Shown: piece after piece, positions 12,209 through 20,297 of the stretch | How positions within the stretch are numbered: position 1 is the stretch's first letter | Layout of the letters: the number at the start of each line of letters is the position of its first letter | Source of the DNA: an uncultured Clostridia bacterium | GTDB lineage: Bacteria; Bacillota; Clostridia; Christensenellales; Borkfalkiaceae | Length of the DNA: 33,684 bases | Assembly (NCBI GenBank): GCA_944372075.1 | Contig: CALVYJ010000003.1 | Coordinates: forward strand, 1-33,684 | Direction: 5' to 3' | Position numbers and translations under genes: made by a program | Notes under the pieces: model-generated | The model's database searches: none | Seen by the model: only the letters and a program-made list of their open reading frames with translations | Told to the model about the DNA's origin: nothing

Positions 12209-12236
12209 TTGACAATGGCGTAGAAAGTGCTATAAT
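12209..12236 (+). promoter_or_regulatory. hsp20: Sigma-A promoter of hsp20
   Basis: TTGACA (12209-12214), 16-bp spacer, TATAAT (12231-12236). Both boxes are perfect. The -10 box is embedded in AAGTGCTATAAT, which includes one more copy of the GTGCTA half-site used by the operators downstream. The start of transcription is expected near 12243, inside the first operator. Confidence 0.92.
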
Positions 12237-12338: not shown

Positions 12339-12773
12339 ATGAAACATGAACTTACGGGAAGGAACGCATATTCCGATTATGATTTTTTCAATGATGCGAT
12401 GCAGGGATTTTTCCCTTCGTTGTTTGGTGTACGTGAGCAGGGCGGTCAGAAGTTTATGCGTACGGACATCAAGGAAAACGACAAGGAATACGTCATGGAA
12501 GTGGAGATGCCCGGTGTGGACAAGAAAGACATCAACATTGACCTGAAGGAAGGGTATTTGACGATCTCCGTACAGAAGAAAGAGAATAACGACGAGGAAA
12601 AGAAAGAGCGTTACATTCACAGGGAGCGCAGTTTTTCCAGCAGCCGCAGCTATTATGTCGGGGATATCGAGAAGGAAGCGATCAAGGCGAAGTATGAAAA
12701 CGGCATGTTGATGGTTTATGTACCGAAGGAGACGCCGGTGCAGGAACAGGGGCATCGCATTGAAATCGAATAA
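12339..12773 (+). CDS. hsp20: Small heat-shock protein Hsp20 (alpha-crystallin family)
   Basis: 144-residue ATP-independent holdase that binds unfolding proteins in the cytoplasm. The alpha-crystallin domain covers about residues 43-140: MRTDIKENDKEYVMEVEMPG, then INIDLKEGYLTISV, FSSSRSYYVGDIEKEAIKAKYENGMLMVYVPK, and an IxI-type tail (RIEIE) used in oligomer contacts. The ATG at 12339 follows AAAAAGGAG. It is monocistronic, placed between the CIRCE array and a strong terminator. Control by HrcA is inferred from the operators. In many Firmicutes CIRCE is confined to groESL and dnaK operons, so its use here is notable. Confidence 0.96.
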   Translation: MKHELTGRNAYSDYDFFNDAMQGFFPSLFGVREQGGQKFMRTDIKENDKEYVMEVEMPGVDKKDINIDLKEGYLTISVQKKENNDEEKKERYIHRERSFSSSRSYYVGDIEKEAIKAKYENGMLMVYVPKETPVQEQGHRIEIE

Positions 12774-13005: not shown

Positions 13006-13035
13006 TTGACGAAAAAGGAGGCATTCGACTATAAT
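13006..13035 (+). promoter_or_regulatory. Sigma-A promoter of the glutamate synthase genes
   Basis: TTGACG (13006-13011), 18-bp spacer, TATAAT (13030-13035). The predicted start near 13042 leaves a leader of only about 50 bases, with no terminator or paired hairpins in it. Attenuation therefore seems absent at this promoter, unlike the leader at 17083. Confidence 0.85.
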
Positions 13036-15697: not shown

Positions 15698-15724
15698 AAC
15701 TTGTGATTTTAGGCAAAATTCGCT

Positions 15725-15776
15725 TTGCACGGGCGAAAAAATGAGGTATAATATACAGCGTGGAGAATTTTTCTCC
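15725..15776 (+). promoter_or_regulatory. purA: Promoter of purA with a 5'-end mRNA hairpin
   Basis: TTGCAC (15725-15730), 16-bp spacer, TATAAT (15747-15752); the start is expected near 15759. The transcript would begin almost directly with a perfect hairpin, GGAGAA (15762-15767) with TTCTCC (15771-15776) around TTT. Hairpins at the very 5' end are known to protect mRNA from end-dependent decay. The -10 is perfect; the -35 has two mismatches. Confidence 0.75.
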
Positions 15777-15810
15777 GAAGCGGAAAATTATATCTTGTGA
15801 GGAAGTTTCT

Positions 15811-17082
15811 ATGTTAACATCTATTGTCGGTATCAATTGGGGCGATGAAGGAAAAGGGCGCATGGTCGATCTGCTTTCCAAAGATTTCGACATCGTATGC
15901 CGTTATCAAGGCGGCAACAATGCGGGGCATACCGTTATCAACGAGCGGGGCAAATTTATCCTCAATCTGCTTCCGTCCGGGATCCTTCGTGAAGGCGTGG
16001 TATGCGTGATGGGGCCCGGCATGGTGATCGATATCAAGCATTTGATCGGTGAAATGGCGCGTCTGCGCGAGGCCGGCATCGAAATTTCTCCTGCGAATTT
16101 GAAAATATCCGACCGTGCGGTGATCACGATGCCGTACAACGTGCAGCAGGACTGCCTGGAAGAAGAGCGTCTTGCGGACAAAAAATTCGGTTCGACCAAG
16201 CGCGGGATTGCGCCGGTCTATGCGGACAAATATTTGAAAAAGTCTTTCCGAATGGGCGAGTTGCTGAACATGGAGCTGCTGAAAAAGCGCATTCCCGACA
16301 TCGTCGAGTGGAAAAATCTTACGATCGAGAAGGCGTACGGCGCGGCGGCGGTCAAGACGGAAGAGATGGTGGAATATTTTGAAACATACGGCGCGCCCTT
16401 GCAGGCGTATATTACGGACGTCGGCATCTATCTGAACGAAGCGCACAAGGCGGGCAAGAAGATCATGTTCGAAGCGCAGTTGGGTGCGTTGCGCGACATT
16501 GATTTCGGCATTTACCCGTACACGTCCTCGTCGAACACGATCGCGGCGTACGCGCCGATCGGCGCGGGGGTGCCCAATCTGAAACTGGACAACGTAATCG
16601 GCATCATGAAGGCGTATTCTTCCTGCGTAGGCGAGGGGCCGTTCACTTGCGAGTATTTCGGCGAGAAGGCGGAAAAACTGCGTGCGGCGGGCGGCGAATA
16701 CGGCGCGGCGACGGGGCGGCCCAGGCGCGTCGGGCCGTTTGACGTAGTGGCGTCCAAGTACGGAATCCGCTGCCAGGGTGCGGACGAAATTGCGCTGACG
16801 AAGCTGGATATTTTGTCCGGACACGACGAACTGGAAATTTGCACGGGATATGAATTGAACGGGAAGGTGATCACGGAATTTCCGTTTACGGACGTATTGG
16901 ATCAGTGCAAGCCGGTATTTGAGAAGATCAAGGGCTGGAATTGCGATATTTCCAAGTGCCGGAAGAAGGAAGATCTGCCGCAGGAGGCATTGGACTATAT
17001 TCGGTATATCGAGCGCGCGTGCGAATGCAAAATACGGTACGTATCCGTCGGAGCGGAGCGTGACGCTTATATAGAAATGTGA
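15811..17082 (+). CDS. purA: Adenylosuccinate synthetase
   Basis: Joins IMP and aspartate with GTP to make adenylosuccinate, the first committed step to AMP. The N-terminus MLTSIVGINWGDEGKG holds the GTP loop and catalytic Asp12. GGNNAGHTV with the catalytic histidine, GSTKRGIAPVY, and the C-terminal ATGRPRRVGPFD (guanine and arginine loops) are all present. The frame is open back to 15760, but the ATG at 15811 follows GAGGAAG and yields the usual 423-residue protein. purA has its own promoter and sits between two parts of the GOGAT cluster in the same direction, so read-through could tie it to nitrogen control. Confidence 0.97.
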   Translation: MLTSIVGINWGDEGKGRMVDLLSKDFDIVCRYQGGNNAGHTVINERGKFILNLLPSGILREGVVCVMGPGMVIDIKHLIGEMARLREAGIEISPANLKISDRAVITMPYNVQQDCLEEERLADKKFGSTKRGIAPVYADKYLKKSFRMGELLNMELLKKRIPDIVEWKNLTIEKAYGAAAVKTEEMVEYFETYGAPLQAYITDVGIYLNEAHKAGKKIMFEAQLGALRDIDFGIYPYTSSSNTIAAYAPIGAGVPNLKLDNVIGIMKAYSSCVGEGPFTCEYFGEKAEKLRAAGGEYGAATGRPRRVGPFDVVASKYGIRCQGADEIALTKLDILSGHDELEICTGYELNGKVITEFPFTDVLDQCKPVFEKIKGWNCDISKCRKKEDLPQEALDYIRYIERACECKIRYVSVGAERDAYIEM

Positions 17083-17198
17083 CATCATGGCAACAAGACG
17101 AAAGGGTGCCGTGATGGCTTGCCGTACAAAAAATTCGGCGAAAGATCACGGAACCCTGACAGCCTCCGCTGCGGCGTTCCGCATGCGGAGGTTTTTTT
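17083..17198 (+). promoter_or_regulatory. Structured mRNA leader with exclusive hairpins before the ferredoxin gene
   Basis: The 116 bases between purA and the ferredoxin gene are almost wholly self-complementary. Hairpin A pairs CATCATGGCA (17083-17092) with TGCCGTGATG (17107-17116), 10 bp with one G-U. Hairpin B pairs AGGGTGCCGTGAT (17103-17115) with ATCACGGAACCCT (17145-17157), 12 of 13 bp, and encloses a smaller GCCG/CGGC stem. A and B share 17107-17115, so only one can form. A terminator hairpin follows at 17163. In addition AGCGGAG (17052-17058, end of purA) could pair with CTCCGCT (17164-17170) and block the terminator. The layout is that of an attenuator. No known riboswitch or T-box was recognised, and canonical ANTAR hexaloops (A at 1, G at 4) were not found. 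The ANTAR gene at 19743 is the candidate regulator by position only. Confidence 0.65.
17163..17198 (+). terminator. Attenuator terminator that also hides the ribosome site of the next gene
   Basis: CCTCCGC (17163-17169) pairs with GCGGAGG (17185-17191), and TGCGG (17170-17174) with CCGCA (17179-17183), loop CGTT, one bulged T. Seven T residues follow (17192-17198) and run straight into the ATG at 17199. The only Shine-Dalgarno sequence, GGAGG (17187-17191), is the 3' arm of this stem. When the hairpin forms, transcription should stop and any read-through mRNA would have a masked ribosome site. Confidence 0.88.
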
Positions 17199-17636
17199 AT
17201 GAAGCGCATCTATGTCAATGAAAAATGGTGTCTTGGGTGTCATCTGTGCGAATACGAATGTGCGTTTGCGAATTCCGGGCTTACGGACATGGTCAAGGCG
17301 CTCAAGGGAAAAGTTATCCATCCCAAAATTCGAGTGGAAGACGGAGAGGAGGTTCACTTTGCGGTAAATTGTCGGCATTGCAGCGATCCGATCTGCGTAC
17401 ATTCGTGCATAGCGGGCGCGTTGTCGCAGGGTGCGGACGGGGTAGTCGGCATCGACACGGACAAATGTGTCGGGTGTTTGACCTGCGTACTGGTATGTCC
17501 GTACGGGGCGATCATGCCGGCGGCGGACGGGCATGTCGCGCAAAAGTGCATGTTGTGTATCGACAACGTATGCGGCGAGCCGAACTGCGTCAAATACTGC
17601 TTAAACAACGCCATTGTCTACGAGGAGAGGGATTGA
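17199..17636 (+). CDS. Four-cluster 4Fe-4S ferredoxin-type electron-transfer subunit of GOGAT
   Basis: A 145-residue protein of the polyferredoxin type (CooF/HycB-like). It has four cysteine motifs: CLGCHLCEYEC (from residue 11), CRHCSDPICVHSC, CVGCLTCVLVCP and CMLCIDNVCGEPNCVKYC, enough for up to four 4Fe-4S clusters. It probably carries electrons between the FAD/NAD oxidoreductase encoded next (one base apart) and the FMN subunit at 14189. The start ATG directly follows the T-run of the attenuator and uses GGAGG in its stem. Clostridial GOGAT clusters with a ferredoxin, an FAD oxidoreductase and a separate GXGXG subunit are established, which supports the role. Confidence 0.93.
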   Translation: MKRIYVNEKWCLGCHLCEYECAFANSGLTDMVKALKGKVIHPKIRVEDGEEVHFAVNCRHCSDPICVHSCIAGALSQGADGVVGIDTDKCVGCLTCVLVCPYGAIMPAADGHVAQKCMLCIDNVCGEPNCVKYCLNNAIVYEERD

Positions 17637-17637
17637 T

Positions 17638-18885
17638 ATGAAATACGTGATTATCGGAAACGGAACGGCGGCGATCGCCGCGGCGGAGTCTATCCGTGCG
17701 CGCGACGGCCGAGGGGAGATCGTCATGATCGCGGATGAGCCGTATCATACCTATGGGAGGCCGCTGATCTCCTATTATCTGTTGGGAAAGACGGATGCCG
17801 AGCGCATGAAATACCGCGCGGATGATTTTTATTCCGAAAACGGGATCGAAACGCTGTTCGGTAAGAGGGCGGTCAAACTGGATCCCGAAAAAAAGGAGAT
17901 CGTACTTGCTGACGGCGAGCGAATCGGGTACGATCGTCTGCTCCTTGCGACGGGGAGCCGTCCCTTTGATCCGCCGATGGAGGGCATTGAACGAGTATCG
18001 CATCGCTTTCATTTTATGACGTTTGCGGATGCTCTGGCTTTGGAAAAGGAGCTTTCGCCCGAAAAGCGCGTGCTGATCGTTGGGGCTGGATTGATCGGTC
18101 TGAAGTGTCTGGAGGGGATCGCCGATCGGGTGGCGAGCGTTTCCGTGATAGACATGGCGGACAGGATCCTGCCCAGCGTACTCGACGCATACGGCGCAGG
18201 AATCGTGCAGAGGGAATTGGAGAAACGCGCGACTTTTTATCTGAAAGACAGCGTCGCAACGTTTGAAAAAGACAGGGCGTATCTCAAGAGCGGAAAGCAG
18301 GTCGCGTTTGACGTATTGGTCGTGGCGGTCGGCGTGCGGCCCAACGTCGAGCTTCTGAAGGAAGCGGGCGGCGCGGTTTCGAGGGGAATATTGACCGATG
18401 ACGGACAGCGCACGACGCTCCAAGACGTCTATGCGGCGGGCGACTGTACGGAAAGCTACGACGTCACGGCGGGATCGAATAAAATTCTGGCGCTGTTGCC
18501 GAACGCGCAATTCCAAGGCGCGTGCGCGGGAACGAACATGGCGGGCGGCGACGCGCATTTTACGAACGCGGTGCCGATGAATGCGATCGGGTTTTTCGGA
18601 TCGCATATTCTGACGGCTGGCTCGTACGTCGGGGAGACGTATGAAGAAAAATCCGAGCGGACGTATAAAAAACTTTTTTATGCCGACGGCAAGCTGAAGG
18701 GTTTTATTTTGGTCAACATGCCGGAGCGTGCGGGGATCTATACGTCGCTGCTCCGCAATGCGGTTCCGCTGACGGAGGTAGATTTTGAAGCGTTAAAAAG
18801 GGAGCCTGGGTTGATGGCGTTTTCCGCGAGCTACCGCGCCGAGAAGCTGGCGGGTGCAGCGGCGAGCGGCGCGAGAGAGGAATGA
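17638..18885 (+). CDS. FAD-dependent NAD(P)H oxidoreductase, GOGAT electron-input subunit
   Basis: A 415-residue pyridine nucleotide-disulfide-family protein (NADH-dependent rubredoxin/nitrite-reductase-like reductase fold). The N-terminal FAD motif is YVIIGNGTAAIAAAESIR; the second Rossmann motif for NAD(P) is RVLIVGAGLIGLKCLEG. The closing FAD motif is LQDVYAAGDCTE. No redox-active CxxxxC pair is seen, as is usual in this branch. The ATG at 17638 follows GAGGAGAGG and comes one base after the ferredoxin stop. The frame extends upstream to 17614 inside the ferredoxin gene, without a better site. It likely oxidises NAD(P)H and passes electrons to the ferredoxin; coupling to GOGAT is inferred from the operon. 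Confidence 0.93.
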   Translation: MKYVIIGNGTAAIAAAESIRARDGRGEIVMIADEPYHTYGRPLISYYLLGKTDAERMKYRADDFYSENGIETLFGKRAVKLDPEKKEIVLADGERIGYDRLLLATGSRPFDPPMEGIERVSHRFHFMTFADALALEKELSPEKRVLIVGAGLIGLKCLEGIADRVASVSVIDMADRILPSVLDAYGAGIVQRELEKRATFYLKDSVATFEKDRAYLKSGKQVAFDVLVVAVGVRPNVELLKEAGGAVSRGILTDDGQRTTLQDVYAAGDCTESYDVTAGSNKILALLPNAQFQGACAGTNMAGGDAHFTNAVPMNAIGFFGSHILTAGSYVGETYEEKSERTYKKLFYADGKLKGFILVNMPERAGIYTSLLRNAVPLTEVDFEALKREPGLMAFSASYRAEKLAGAAASGAREE

Positions 18886-18897
18886 GGAGGAACGAAG

Positions 18898-19620
18898 ATG
18901 CGGATCGATGCAAAGGGACTTCATTTTTCCGCGCTGGATAGGGCGGTGCGCGAGGCGCAAGAGCGGGAAATCATAATAGAAAACTGTATCGGGCAGCGGT
19001 ACATTGCCTGCGGTCTTGCCGACAAGAGCGTGACGATCGAAGGGACGCCCGGCAATGCCTTGGGCGCATATTTGAACGGGAGCGTTATTTCCGTGCGCGG
19101 CAATGTGCAGGAAGCTACGGGCGATACGATGAACGGCGGAGAGATCGTCGTGTACGGCAGTGCGGGCGACGCGACCGGATATGCCATGCGCGGCGGAAAG
19201 ATTTTCATACGCGAGGATGTCGGCTACCGATGCGGGATTCATATGAAGGCGTATCGGGAGAACAAGCCGTCGATCGTGATCGGCGGCAGGGCGGGCAGTT
19301 TTTTGGGCGAATACCAAGCGGGCGGAACGATCGTCGTACTGGGAGACAATTTACAGGGGAAGCCGTTGATCGGCAATTTCTGCGGGACGGGGATGCACGG
19401 CGGCGAGATGTATCTGCGCTGTGAGCGGATCCCGACGCGTCTGCCGGTGCAGGTCAAGGCGGAGCGATTGGTAAAACTTCCCGAAGGCGAAGCGGCACAG
19501 CTTGTGCGGGAGTGGTGTAAAAAATTCGGAAAGGACAGCGACGGCTATCTGCACAGCACGTATTACAAACTCACGCCCGACAGCGCCAATCCCTATAAAC
19601 AGATGTATACGGCAAATTGA
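18898..19620 (+). CDS. Glutamate synthase GXGXG-domain subunit (GltB C-terminal domain)
   Basis: A 240-residue right-handed beta-helix protein made of repeating GxxGxxxxGG turns: GNALGAYLNG, GDTMNGGEIVVYG, GDATGYAMRGGKIFI, GTIVVLGD and GTGMHGGEMYLR. This corresponds to the C-terminal domain of GltB, which packs between the amidotransferase and FMN domains and helps shape the ammonia tunnel. The ATG at 18898 follows GAGGAGG. It completes a five-gene GOGAT: glutaminase, FMN subunit, ferredoxin, oxidoreductase and GXGXG. A GC-rich hairpin separates it from the ANTAR gene. Confidence 0.94.
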   Translation: MRIDAKGLHFSALDRAVREAQEREIIIENCIGQRYIACGLADKSVTIEGTPGNALGAYLNGSVISVRGNVQEATGDTMNGGEIVVYGSAGDATGYAMRGGKIFIREDVGYRCGIHMKAYRENKPSIVIGGRAGSFLGEYQAGGTIVVLGDNLQGKPLIGNFCGTGMHGGEMYLRCERIPTRLPVQVKAERLVKLPEGEAAQLVREWCKKFGKDSDGYLHSTYYKLTPDSANPYKQMYTAN

Positions 19621-19742: not shown

Positions 19743-20297
19743 ATGCGAAGGATTCTGGTTTGCAGCAACGTACAGGCTGCGGCAGAAAAGATCGCGCACG
19801 TCTTGATCGAGAACGGGTATGAAGTGCGGATCGAATGCGAACAGCGCGCCGCAAGCGAGGCTTGCGGCGGGTTTGACGCTGCGGTTTTTATCTTCTCGTC
19901 GCTGCGGGAATGGGAAGAAACGATCCGGTTTTTTTCTTTGGAAACGCCGTTGGGGCTGTTGGCTCTGGCGAAGGAAGGGGGCAAGGAAGAGGCGAGCATC
20001 TATGCCGAGCTGGGAATACCGGTATTGCCCTTTACCACACCGTGCAAGACGTTTTTATTCGGTTTGGAATTTGCGACGAAATCGGGGGAACGGCTGCGGG
20101 CGATGGGTTATGAAAACAGGAAGCTCAAGGATACGATCAGCGATTTGAAGCTGGTCGATCGCGCAAAATGCGCCTTGATCCAATATTTGAACATGACGGA
20201 AGCGGATGCGCATCGGTTTATTGAAAAGCAAGCGATGAACAAACGTCTGTCCAAGCGAGAGATCGCCTTGCAGATCTTGAATGCTTATGAAAGTTGA
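19743..20297 (+). CDS. ANTAR-domain antiterminator with a degenerate receiver (NasT-like)
   Basis: A 184-residue RNA-binding regulator. The C-terminal ~60 residues form the ANTAR three-helix domain (LKDTISDLKLVDRAKCALIQ, then YLNMTEADAHRFIEKQAMNK, RLSKREIALQIL). ANTAR proteins bind paired hairpins in leaders and prevent termination. The N-terminal ~110 residues are receiver-like, but the key residues are missing: the acidic pair after strand 1 is CSN, the strand-3 end reads FIFSS with no aspartate, and the strand-5 lysine position reads FTTP. Control by phosphorylation is therefore unlikely; a bound metabolite or partner protein is possible. The ATG at 19743 follows GGAGG; the open frame upstream to 19617 has no good start. 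It is the last gene of the GOGAT set and lies 15 bases before dapF. Confidence 0.9.
   Translation: MRRILVCSNVQAAAEKIAHVLIENGYEVRIECEQRAASEACGGFDAAVFIFSSLREWEETIRFFSLETPLGLLALAKEGGKEEASIYAELGIPVLPFTTPCKTFLFGLEFATKSGERLRAMGYENRKLKDTISDLKLVDRAKCALIQYLNMTEADAHRFIEKQAMNKRLSKREIALQILNAYES

Follow-up and report, generated by a model that had tools for sequence, protein, structure and literature searches.

A conserved candidate attenuator combining transcriptional and translational control between purA and a ferredoxin-like gene in Candidatus Borkfalkia

In the present study, the spacer between purA and a ferredoxin-like gene has been recognised as a compact dual device, in which a terminator, a shield for the Shine-Dalgarno (SD) sequence and the spacer between SD and start codon are packed within 29 + 7 nt, and which is new to Rfam and supported by covariation. 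Judged by comparative sequence evidence, the element is a real, conserved and genus-restricted attenuator with a combined transcriptional and translational output. On balance, we consider it probable that this attenuator works through a chain of alternative pairings, with a ribosome at the purA stop codon as the most likely trigger. The idea that a full-length enzyme gene serves as the leader open reading frame (ORF), such that translation of purA to its stop would turn off the electron-input genes through termination together with SD hiding, is put forward tentatively, and we rate it as somewhat doubtful. Termination, its efficiency, the ribosome as sensor and the physiological signal are each things that we infer.

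The window, i.e. the whole stretch of 33,684 nt that was analysed (all coordinates refer to its plus strand), belongs to a genome of the genus Candidatus Borkfalkia and carries, in this order, a GATase-domain gene, gltB (Glu_synthase), purA, the ferredoxin-like gene, an FAD oxidoreductase gene, a GXGXG gene, an ANTAR gene, dapF and pyrG; an earlier, sequence-only reading of this DNA, which had likewise put the genes for the glutaminase and the FMN domain ahead of purA, was right on this point. The proposed leader ORF, purA, encodes adenylosuccinate synthetase (15805-17082; Pfam PF00709, 3.7e-160). The first controlled gene would be that of the ferredoxin-like 4Fe-4S protein (17199-17636; Pfam Fer4_11, 3.4e-14), followed by the FAD/NAD(P) oxidoreductase gene (17638-18885; Pfam PF07992, 1.2e-55), which would be controlled by readthrough, and the gene for the GXGXG domain protein, with a GOGAT gamma-like domain (18898-19620; Pfam PF01493, 5.2e-32). 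The oxidoreductase gene has an SD-like sequence of its own, and thus control of the whole cassette would need a transcriptional effect. The ANTAR-domain protein (19743-20297; Pfam PF03861, 6.4e-14), a rival candidate regulator, is the sole ANTAR match in the genome, and its N-terminal region is receiver-like. Promoter-like sites were observed just 5' of the GATase gene (13006-13035) and of purA (15724-15752), suggesting that purA and the attenuated genes may use a promoter separate from that of gltB. A perfect consensus sigma-70-type promoter (TTGACA-16-TATAAT with TG) was also noted at 12209-12236, ahead of an Hsp20-like gene at 12339.

The spacer itself covers 116 nt (17083-17198), from the purA stop codon TGA (17080-17082) to the ferredoxin ATG at 17199, and its 3' part is occupied by the terminator-like hairpin (17163-17191; CCTCCGC-TGCGG-CGTT-CCGCA-T-GCGGAGG), which would also sequester the SD. 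All coordinates of the sequence-only reading are correct, and its central observations, that GGAGG (17187-17191) lies within the 3' arm of the terminator and that the seven Ts (17192-17198) end at the ATG and double as the SD-ATG spacer, were borne out. GGAGG is the only visible SD, no second one having been seen ahead of the ferredoxin ATG. The most stable fold of 17079-17201 has a free energy of -53 kcal/mol (z -4.95), and none of 200 dinucleotide shuffles was as stable. A simple terminator scan reported the hairpin at the spacer, such matches being no commoner in the region than in shuffles. The hairpin followed by T7 provides the intrinsic terminator expected of a transcription attenuator; among the relatives, the T-run is clean in 7/10 and imperfect in 3/10 (G008, G015 and G027), and the SD is placed in the 3' arm, with its occlusion kept, in 10/10 leaders. 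Putative SD occlusion is thus a more conserved effect than the clean T-run, and control in G015, G027 and G008 may be mainly translational. The earlier proposal that one fold could block both transcription and translation is consistent with this design, a T-run terminator with the SD in its 3' arm, although a clean T-run does not extend to every relative.

Upstream of the terminator, several segments can exchange partners. Segment 1 (CATCATGGCA, 17083-17092) pairs with part of segment 2 (the GGGTGCCGTGATG region, 17103-17116; pairing 1:2, 17083-17092 with 17107-17116), segment 2 can pair instead with segment 3 (ATCACGGAACCCT, 17145-17157; pairing 2:3, 17103-17115 with 17145-17157), and segment 3, together with its linker, can alternatively engage the terminator's apical half (pairing 3:4), forming an antiterminator hairpin (17149-17181) whose CTCC loop holds the anti-SD. 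Two mutually exclusive hairpins had been proposed for this leader, and both (1:2 and 2:3) exist, but the third alternative, 3:4, a real antiterminator, found well formed in each of the ten ferredoxin leaders, had been overlooked. Between segments 2 and 3, an inner hairpin folds (17119-17141), with a loop that is not conserved in G015, G038 and G016. Hardly any variation is seen among the leaders in the cores TCACGG, CCGTGA and ATCACGG, as expected if one segment has to fit two partners, and the core of segment 3 is invariant in the ten ferredoxin leaders. Both the length and the sequence of the loops and of the inner hairpin differ between leaders, and the conserved positions lie nearly all in the alternating arms. 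The core of segment 1 begins 0-4 nt past the purA stop in 12/12 sequences, within the stretch that a ribosome standing at that stop would cover. No conserved short ORF that could encode a leader peptide with sensor codons was found in the leader; a candidate peptide from the ATG at 17087, whose frame is open at 17087-17221 and overlaps the start of the ferredoxin gene in a different frame, was rejected, as it is not conserved in the relatives.

For comparison with relatives, 40 genomes of the genus were searched with the ferredoxin and the upstream regions were read. Ten leaders of one kind were obtained (the window, G006, G008, G015, G018, G020, G027, G028, G036 and G037), all with purA directly upstream, and a covariance model was built from them and used for searching. 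One further clear match, scoring 45 bits, was observed right behind purA in G038, where the attenuator is followed by dapF and pyrG (L040, L158), dapF lying ~50 nt on with an SD of its own. The element is carried by 10/10 genomes in which purA adjoins the ferredoxin gene, and elsewhere in the genus clearly only by G038; in the rest of the genus, plain terminators or nothing are found downstream of purA, save for the doubtful case of G016, in which the segments are partly present but the mask test described below and the antiterminator score (z 0.1) fail. A family-wide search of 301 genomes gave no other convincing match, and weak matches elsewhere in the genus and family proved on inspection to be plain terminators without the upstream arms. 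No such leader precedes the ferredoxin genes that directly follow gltB, and in sister genera with the order gltB-purA-ferredoxin the element is absent from the spacers (~10 to 190 nt). Five such loci in sister genera, one of which is named Candidatus Coproplasma (L096, L097, L099, L115 and L133), have this gene order without the RNA, which suggests that the order predates the attenuator or arose separately. In the tree of purA, the element-bearing genomes fall into several groups with moderate support, one partial purA being included, and no order of gain or loss is claimed. The element thus characterises a single genus and the junction that follows purA, and its association with ferredoxin as the next gene is strong. 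Its earlier description as a ferredoxin leader fits the ten junctions, but the element is tied equally to the 3' end of purA, as it precedes dapF in G038 and is missing from the gltB-adjacent ferredoxin genes.

The genus also has a palindromic repeat (AAATCACGGAAA[A/T]TTC ... GAA[A/T]TTTCGTGAA), which is dispersed in up to 16 copies per genome. It occurs downstream of purA (L154, L146), upstream of ferredoxin (L024/L028) and many times in G007, G019 and G031; in G019 it lies right behind the purA stop. The G008 bin contains two ferredoxin-oxidoreductase-GXGXG-ANTAR clusters (L061, L083), one with the attenuator leader and the other with the repeat; in this second cluster, as in G007, the repeat folds into a different hairpin immediately 5' of the ferredoxin SD. 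The idea that the attenuator derived from this repeat, which also starts with AAATCACGGAA and adjoins purA in G004 and G019, was considered; however, the two share only ~8-9 nt, ATCACGGAA shows no enrichment in the window when one mismatch is allowed, and the window genome has one copy, so that such an origin is kept as a tentative idea.

The switch architecture is well supported. The segments were anchored by hand on their cores, and the variable flanks were tested, because the cores do not vary. When own segments were compared with segments swapped between leaders, own partners paired better for 1:2 (z -3.9, P 1e-4), 2:3 (z -3.7, P <1e-4), 3:4 (z -3.3, P 4e-4) and the full antiterminator halves (z -3.7, P 0.00005), the P values being indicative only, as the sequences are related. 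No excess was obtained for the unpredicted pairings 1:4, 2:4 and 1:3 used as controls, and the result persisted with one sequence per divergent group. Pair counting ranked the pairings alike, with covariation scores of 0.299 vs 0.120 for 1:2 (0/500 shuffles), 0.119 vs 0.054 for 2:3 (2/500) and 0.201 vs 0.107 for 3:4 (2/500), whereas 179/500 shuffles did as well for the control 1:4. Support is strongest for 1:2 and weakest for 3:4, as a slid partner gave similar scores for 3:4 and the terminators of the family often share an AT-rich apex (GCGG[AT]4CCGC), so that some of the 3:4 complementarity comes cheap. Compensatory changes in homologous leaders, the check that the sequence-only reading had itself named, are thus present for the alternative pairings, and the mutually exclusive antiterminator expected of a transcription attenuator is accompanied by covariation.

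With polymerase at the last T of the T-run, the RNA that has left its exit channel reaches to about nt 102-106. With segment 4 just emerged (~nt 102-106 of 122 from the stop codon), 1:2 + 3:4 is favoured in the window (-39.9 vs -35.6 kcal/mol), and in transcripts ending at segment 4 it is more stable than 2:3 in 11/12 sequences. A terminating ribosome was mimicked in equilibrium folds by blocking the stop codon together with the 12 nt that follow it; this mask took the antiterminator of the window leader from 0.97 to 0.00 and pairing 2:3 from 0.00 to 1.00, whereas masking the 1-2 loop had no effect. The shift from 1:2 to 2:3 was seen in most relatives, incomplete in G015 and G027 and absent in G016. 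The position of segment 1 and the mask folds therefore provide the end of a translated ORF at which a ribosome could mask one arm, as in attenuators of the trp/his kind. At 80-100 nt, the equilibrium fold of the window RNA is 2:3 even without a ribosome, and the ON state would thus depend on kinetics.

Herein, we propose the following sequence of events. In the ON state, segments 1 and 2 would pair, segment 3 would be left free and the 3:4 antiterminator would form, holding the anti-SD in its loop and exposing GGAGG, so that polymerase reads on and ferredoxin is translated. In the OFF state, segments 2 and 3 would pair, the terminator would form and transcription would halt at the T-run, and any read-through RNA would still have its SD hidden. 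Segment 1 would lie under the footprint of a ribosome terminating at the purA stop; a ribosome reaching this stop in time would cover it, leading to 2:3, the terminator and the OFF state, whereas late or stopped translation of purA, e.g. upon amino-acid shortage, would allow 1:2 to form and the electron-input genes of glutamate synthase to be made. It is the parity of the segments that would make a timely ribosome mean OFF and a late or absent one ON.

Several other explanations have to be weighed against this proposal. The ANTAR protein encoded in the same gene run might bind the leader and stabilise the antiterminator under nitrogen shortage. Its gene is the only one of its kind in the genome, antitermination by ANTAR proteins has been predicted for glutamate synthase genes in other organisms, and target RNAs have been reported upstream of such genes, e.g. 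in Desulfotomaculum reducens (PMC3369931). However, ANTAR targets are defined by two hexaloop hairpins with A at position 1 and G at position 4, the second overlapping the terminator (PMC3369931), and this double hexaloop was not found at the three leaders checked (the ferredoxin leader, upstream of the first gene and upstream of purA); one weak 3-bp candidate with wobble pairs (17111-17122) occurs at chance density and is not kept in divergent leaders. Moreover, ANTAR is present in 31/40 genus genomes and the attenuator RNA clearly in 11, and their distributions do not match: in G016 an RNA-like element is present but a search for ANTAR gave nothing, and in G038 they lie on different contigs. 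We therefore regard ANTAR control as unlikely. Recognition of the invariant TCACGG arms by another RNA-binding protein, as by PyrR in pyr operon attenuators, might explain why the arms are more invariant than pairing requires, and intercistronic attenuators controlled by PyrR are similarly laid out (PMC7430163); the same invariance follows, however, if segments 2 and 3 are each constrained by two partners (1 and 3 for segment 2, 2 and 4 for segment 3). PyrR elements gave no match in the Rfam scan, and this explanation seems quite unlikely.

A passive terminator, i.e. an ordinary end of the purA transcript with constant readthrough, no switching and a 3' arm used as SD by chance, would agree with the plain terminators between purA and dapF in many relatives and with how short and common terminators are here, but it leaves unexplained the three upstream segments, the partner-specific covariation and the presence of the element in all ten purA-ferredoxin genomes, and is judged improbable. 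A metabolite riboswitch in the 5' domain, responding to glutamine, 2-oxoglutarate or a purine, could be suspected from the conserved arms, the controllable terminator and the metabolic operon. The earlier failure to name a matching riboswitch class agrees with our scan, in which neither the window nor ten related loci matched Rfam 15 at the gathering threshold, a lax search giving only rdlD (17.5 bits vs a cut-off of 50). Outside the switching arms there is no conserved aptamer core, as the loops and inner hairpin differ in length and sequence; nothing resembling a ligand-binding core was seen, and the suggestion of a new riboswitch-like RNA is accordingly disfavoured as very improbable, an attenuator working by folding only being preferred.

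The attenuator with a ribosome at the purA stop as trigger also meets evidence that counts against it. In G038, the RNA is retained and no ferredoxin gene follows it. In B. subtilis, RNA polymerase outruns the ribosomes, and a short distance from stop codon to terminator has served as an indicator of this (PMC7858274); here, the spacing has a median of ~45 nt over 41 sites, and the distances are mixed. If runaway transcription as in B. subtilis also occurs in this clade, ribosomes would arrive too late. The attenuator thus bears on transcription-translation coupling in these Clostridia, since runaway transcription of this type would forbid the ribosome step. If that step is true, a complete metabolic gene would double as the sensor of an attenuator, an uncultured gut clade would have the synthesis of a purine enzyme linked to the supply of electrons for ammonia assimilation, and the electron-input genes of glutamate synthase would rise when translation is slow.

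The attenuators of enteric trp and his operons are ribosome-mediated and combine mutually exclusive segments with a short leader peptide. As in those systems, the parity of the segment chain here sets terminator or antiterminator, and control by the position of a ribosome is proposed; unlike in them, a complete enzyme gene, purA, would take the place of the short leader peptide, sensor codons in a run were not identified, the SD is hidden by the terminator as well, and a mask on segment 1 leads to OFF, as segment 3 is followed by a terminator that belongs to the chain. ANTAR antitermination leaders (PMC3369931) are likewise associated with nitrogen genes, and an ANTAR gene lies in the same run here, but their dual hexaloop was not found in this leader. 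The pyr attenuators of B. subtilis, controlled by PyrR (PMC7430163), are similarly located between operon genes and consist of an anti-antiterminator, an antiterminator and a terminator, whereas the window leader has no PyrR motif or Rfam match and possesses a fourth upstream arm by the stop codon and an SD inside the terminator. In the vmlR leader of B. subtilis (PMC9226507), the choice between anti-antiterminator and antiterminator likewise depends on where a ribosome stands on an upstream ORF, with both transcriptional and translational control; vmlR uses a tripeptide ORF and separate hairpins for terminator and SD, whereas here one hairpin would serve both and the ORF would be purA. An attenuator of trp/his logic with purA as leader ORF, in which the ribosome would presumably be the sensor, is the simplest reading.
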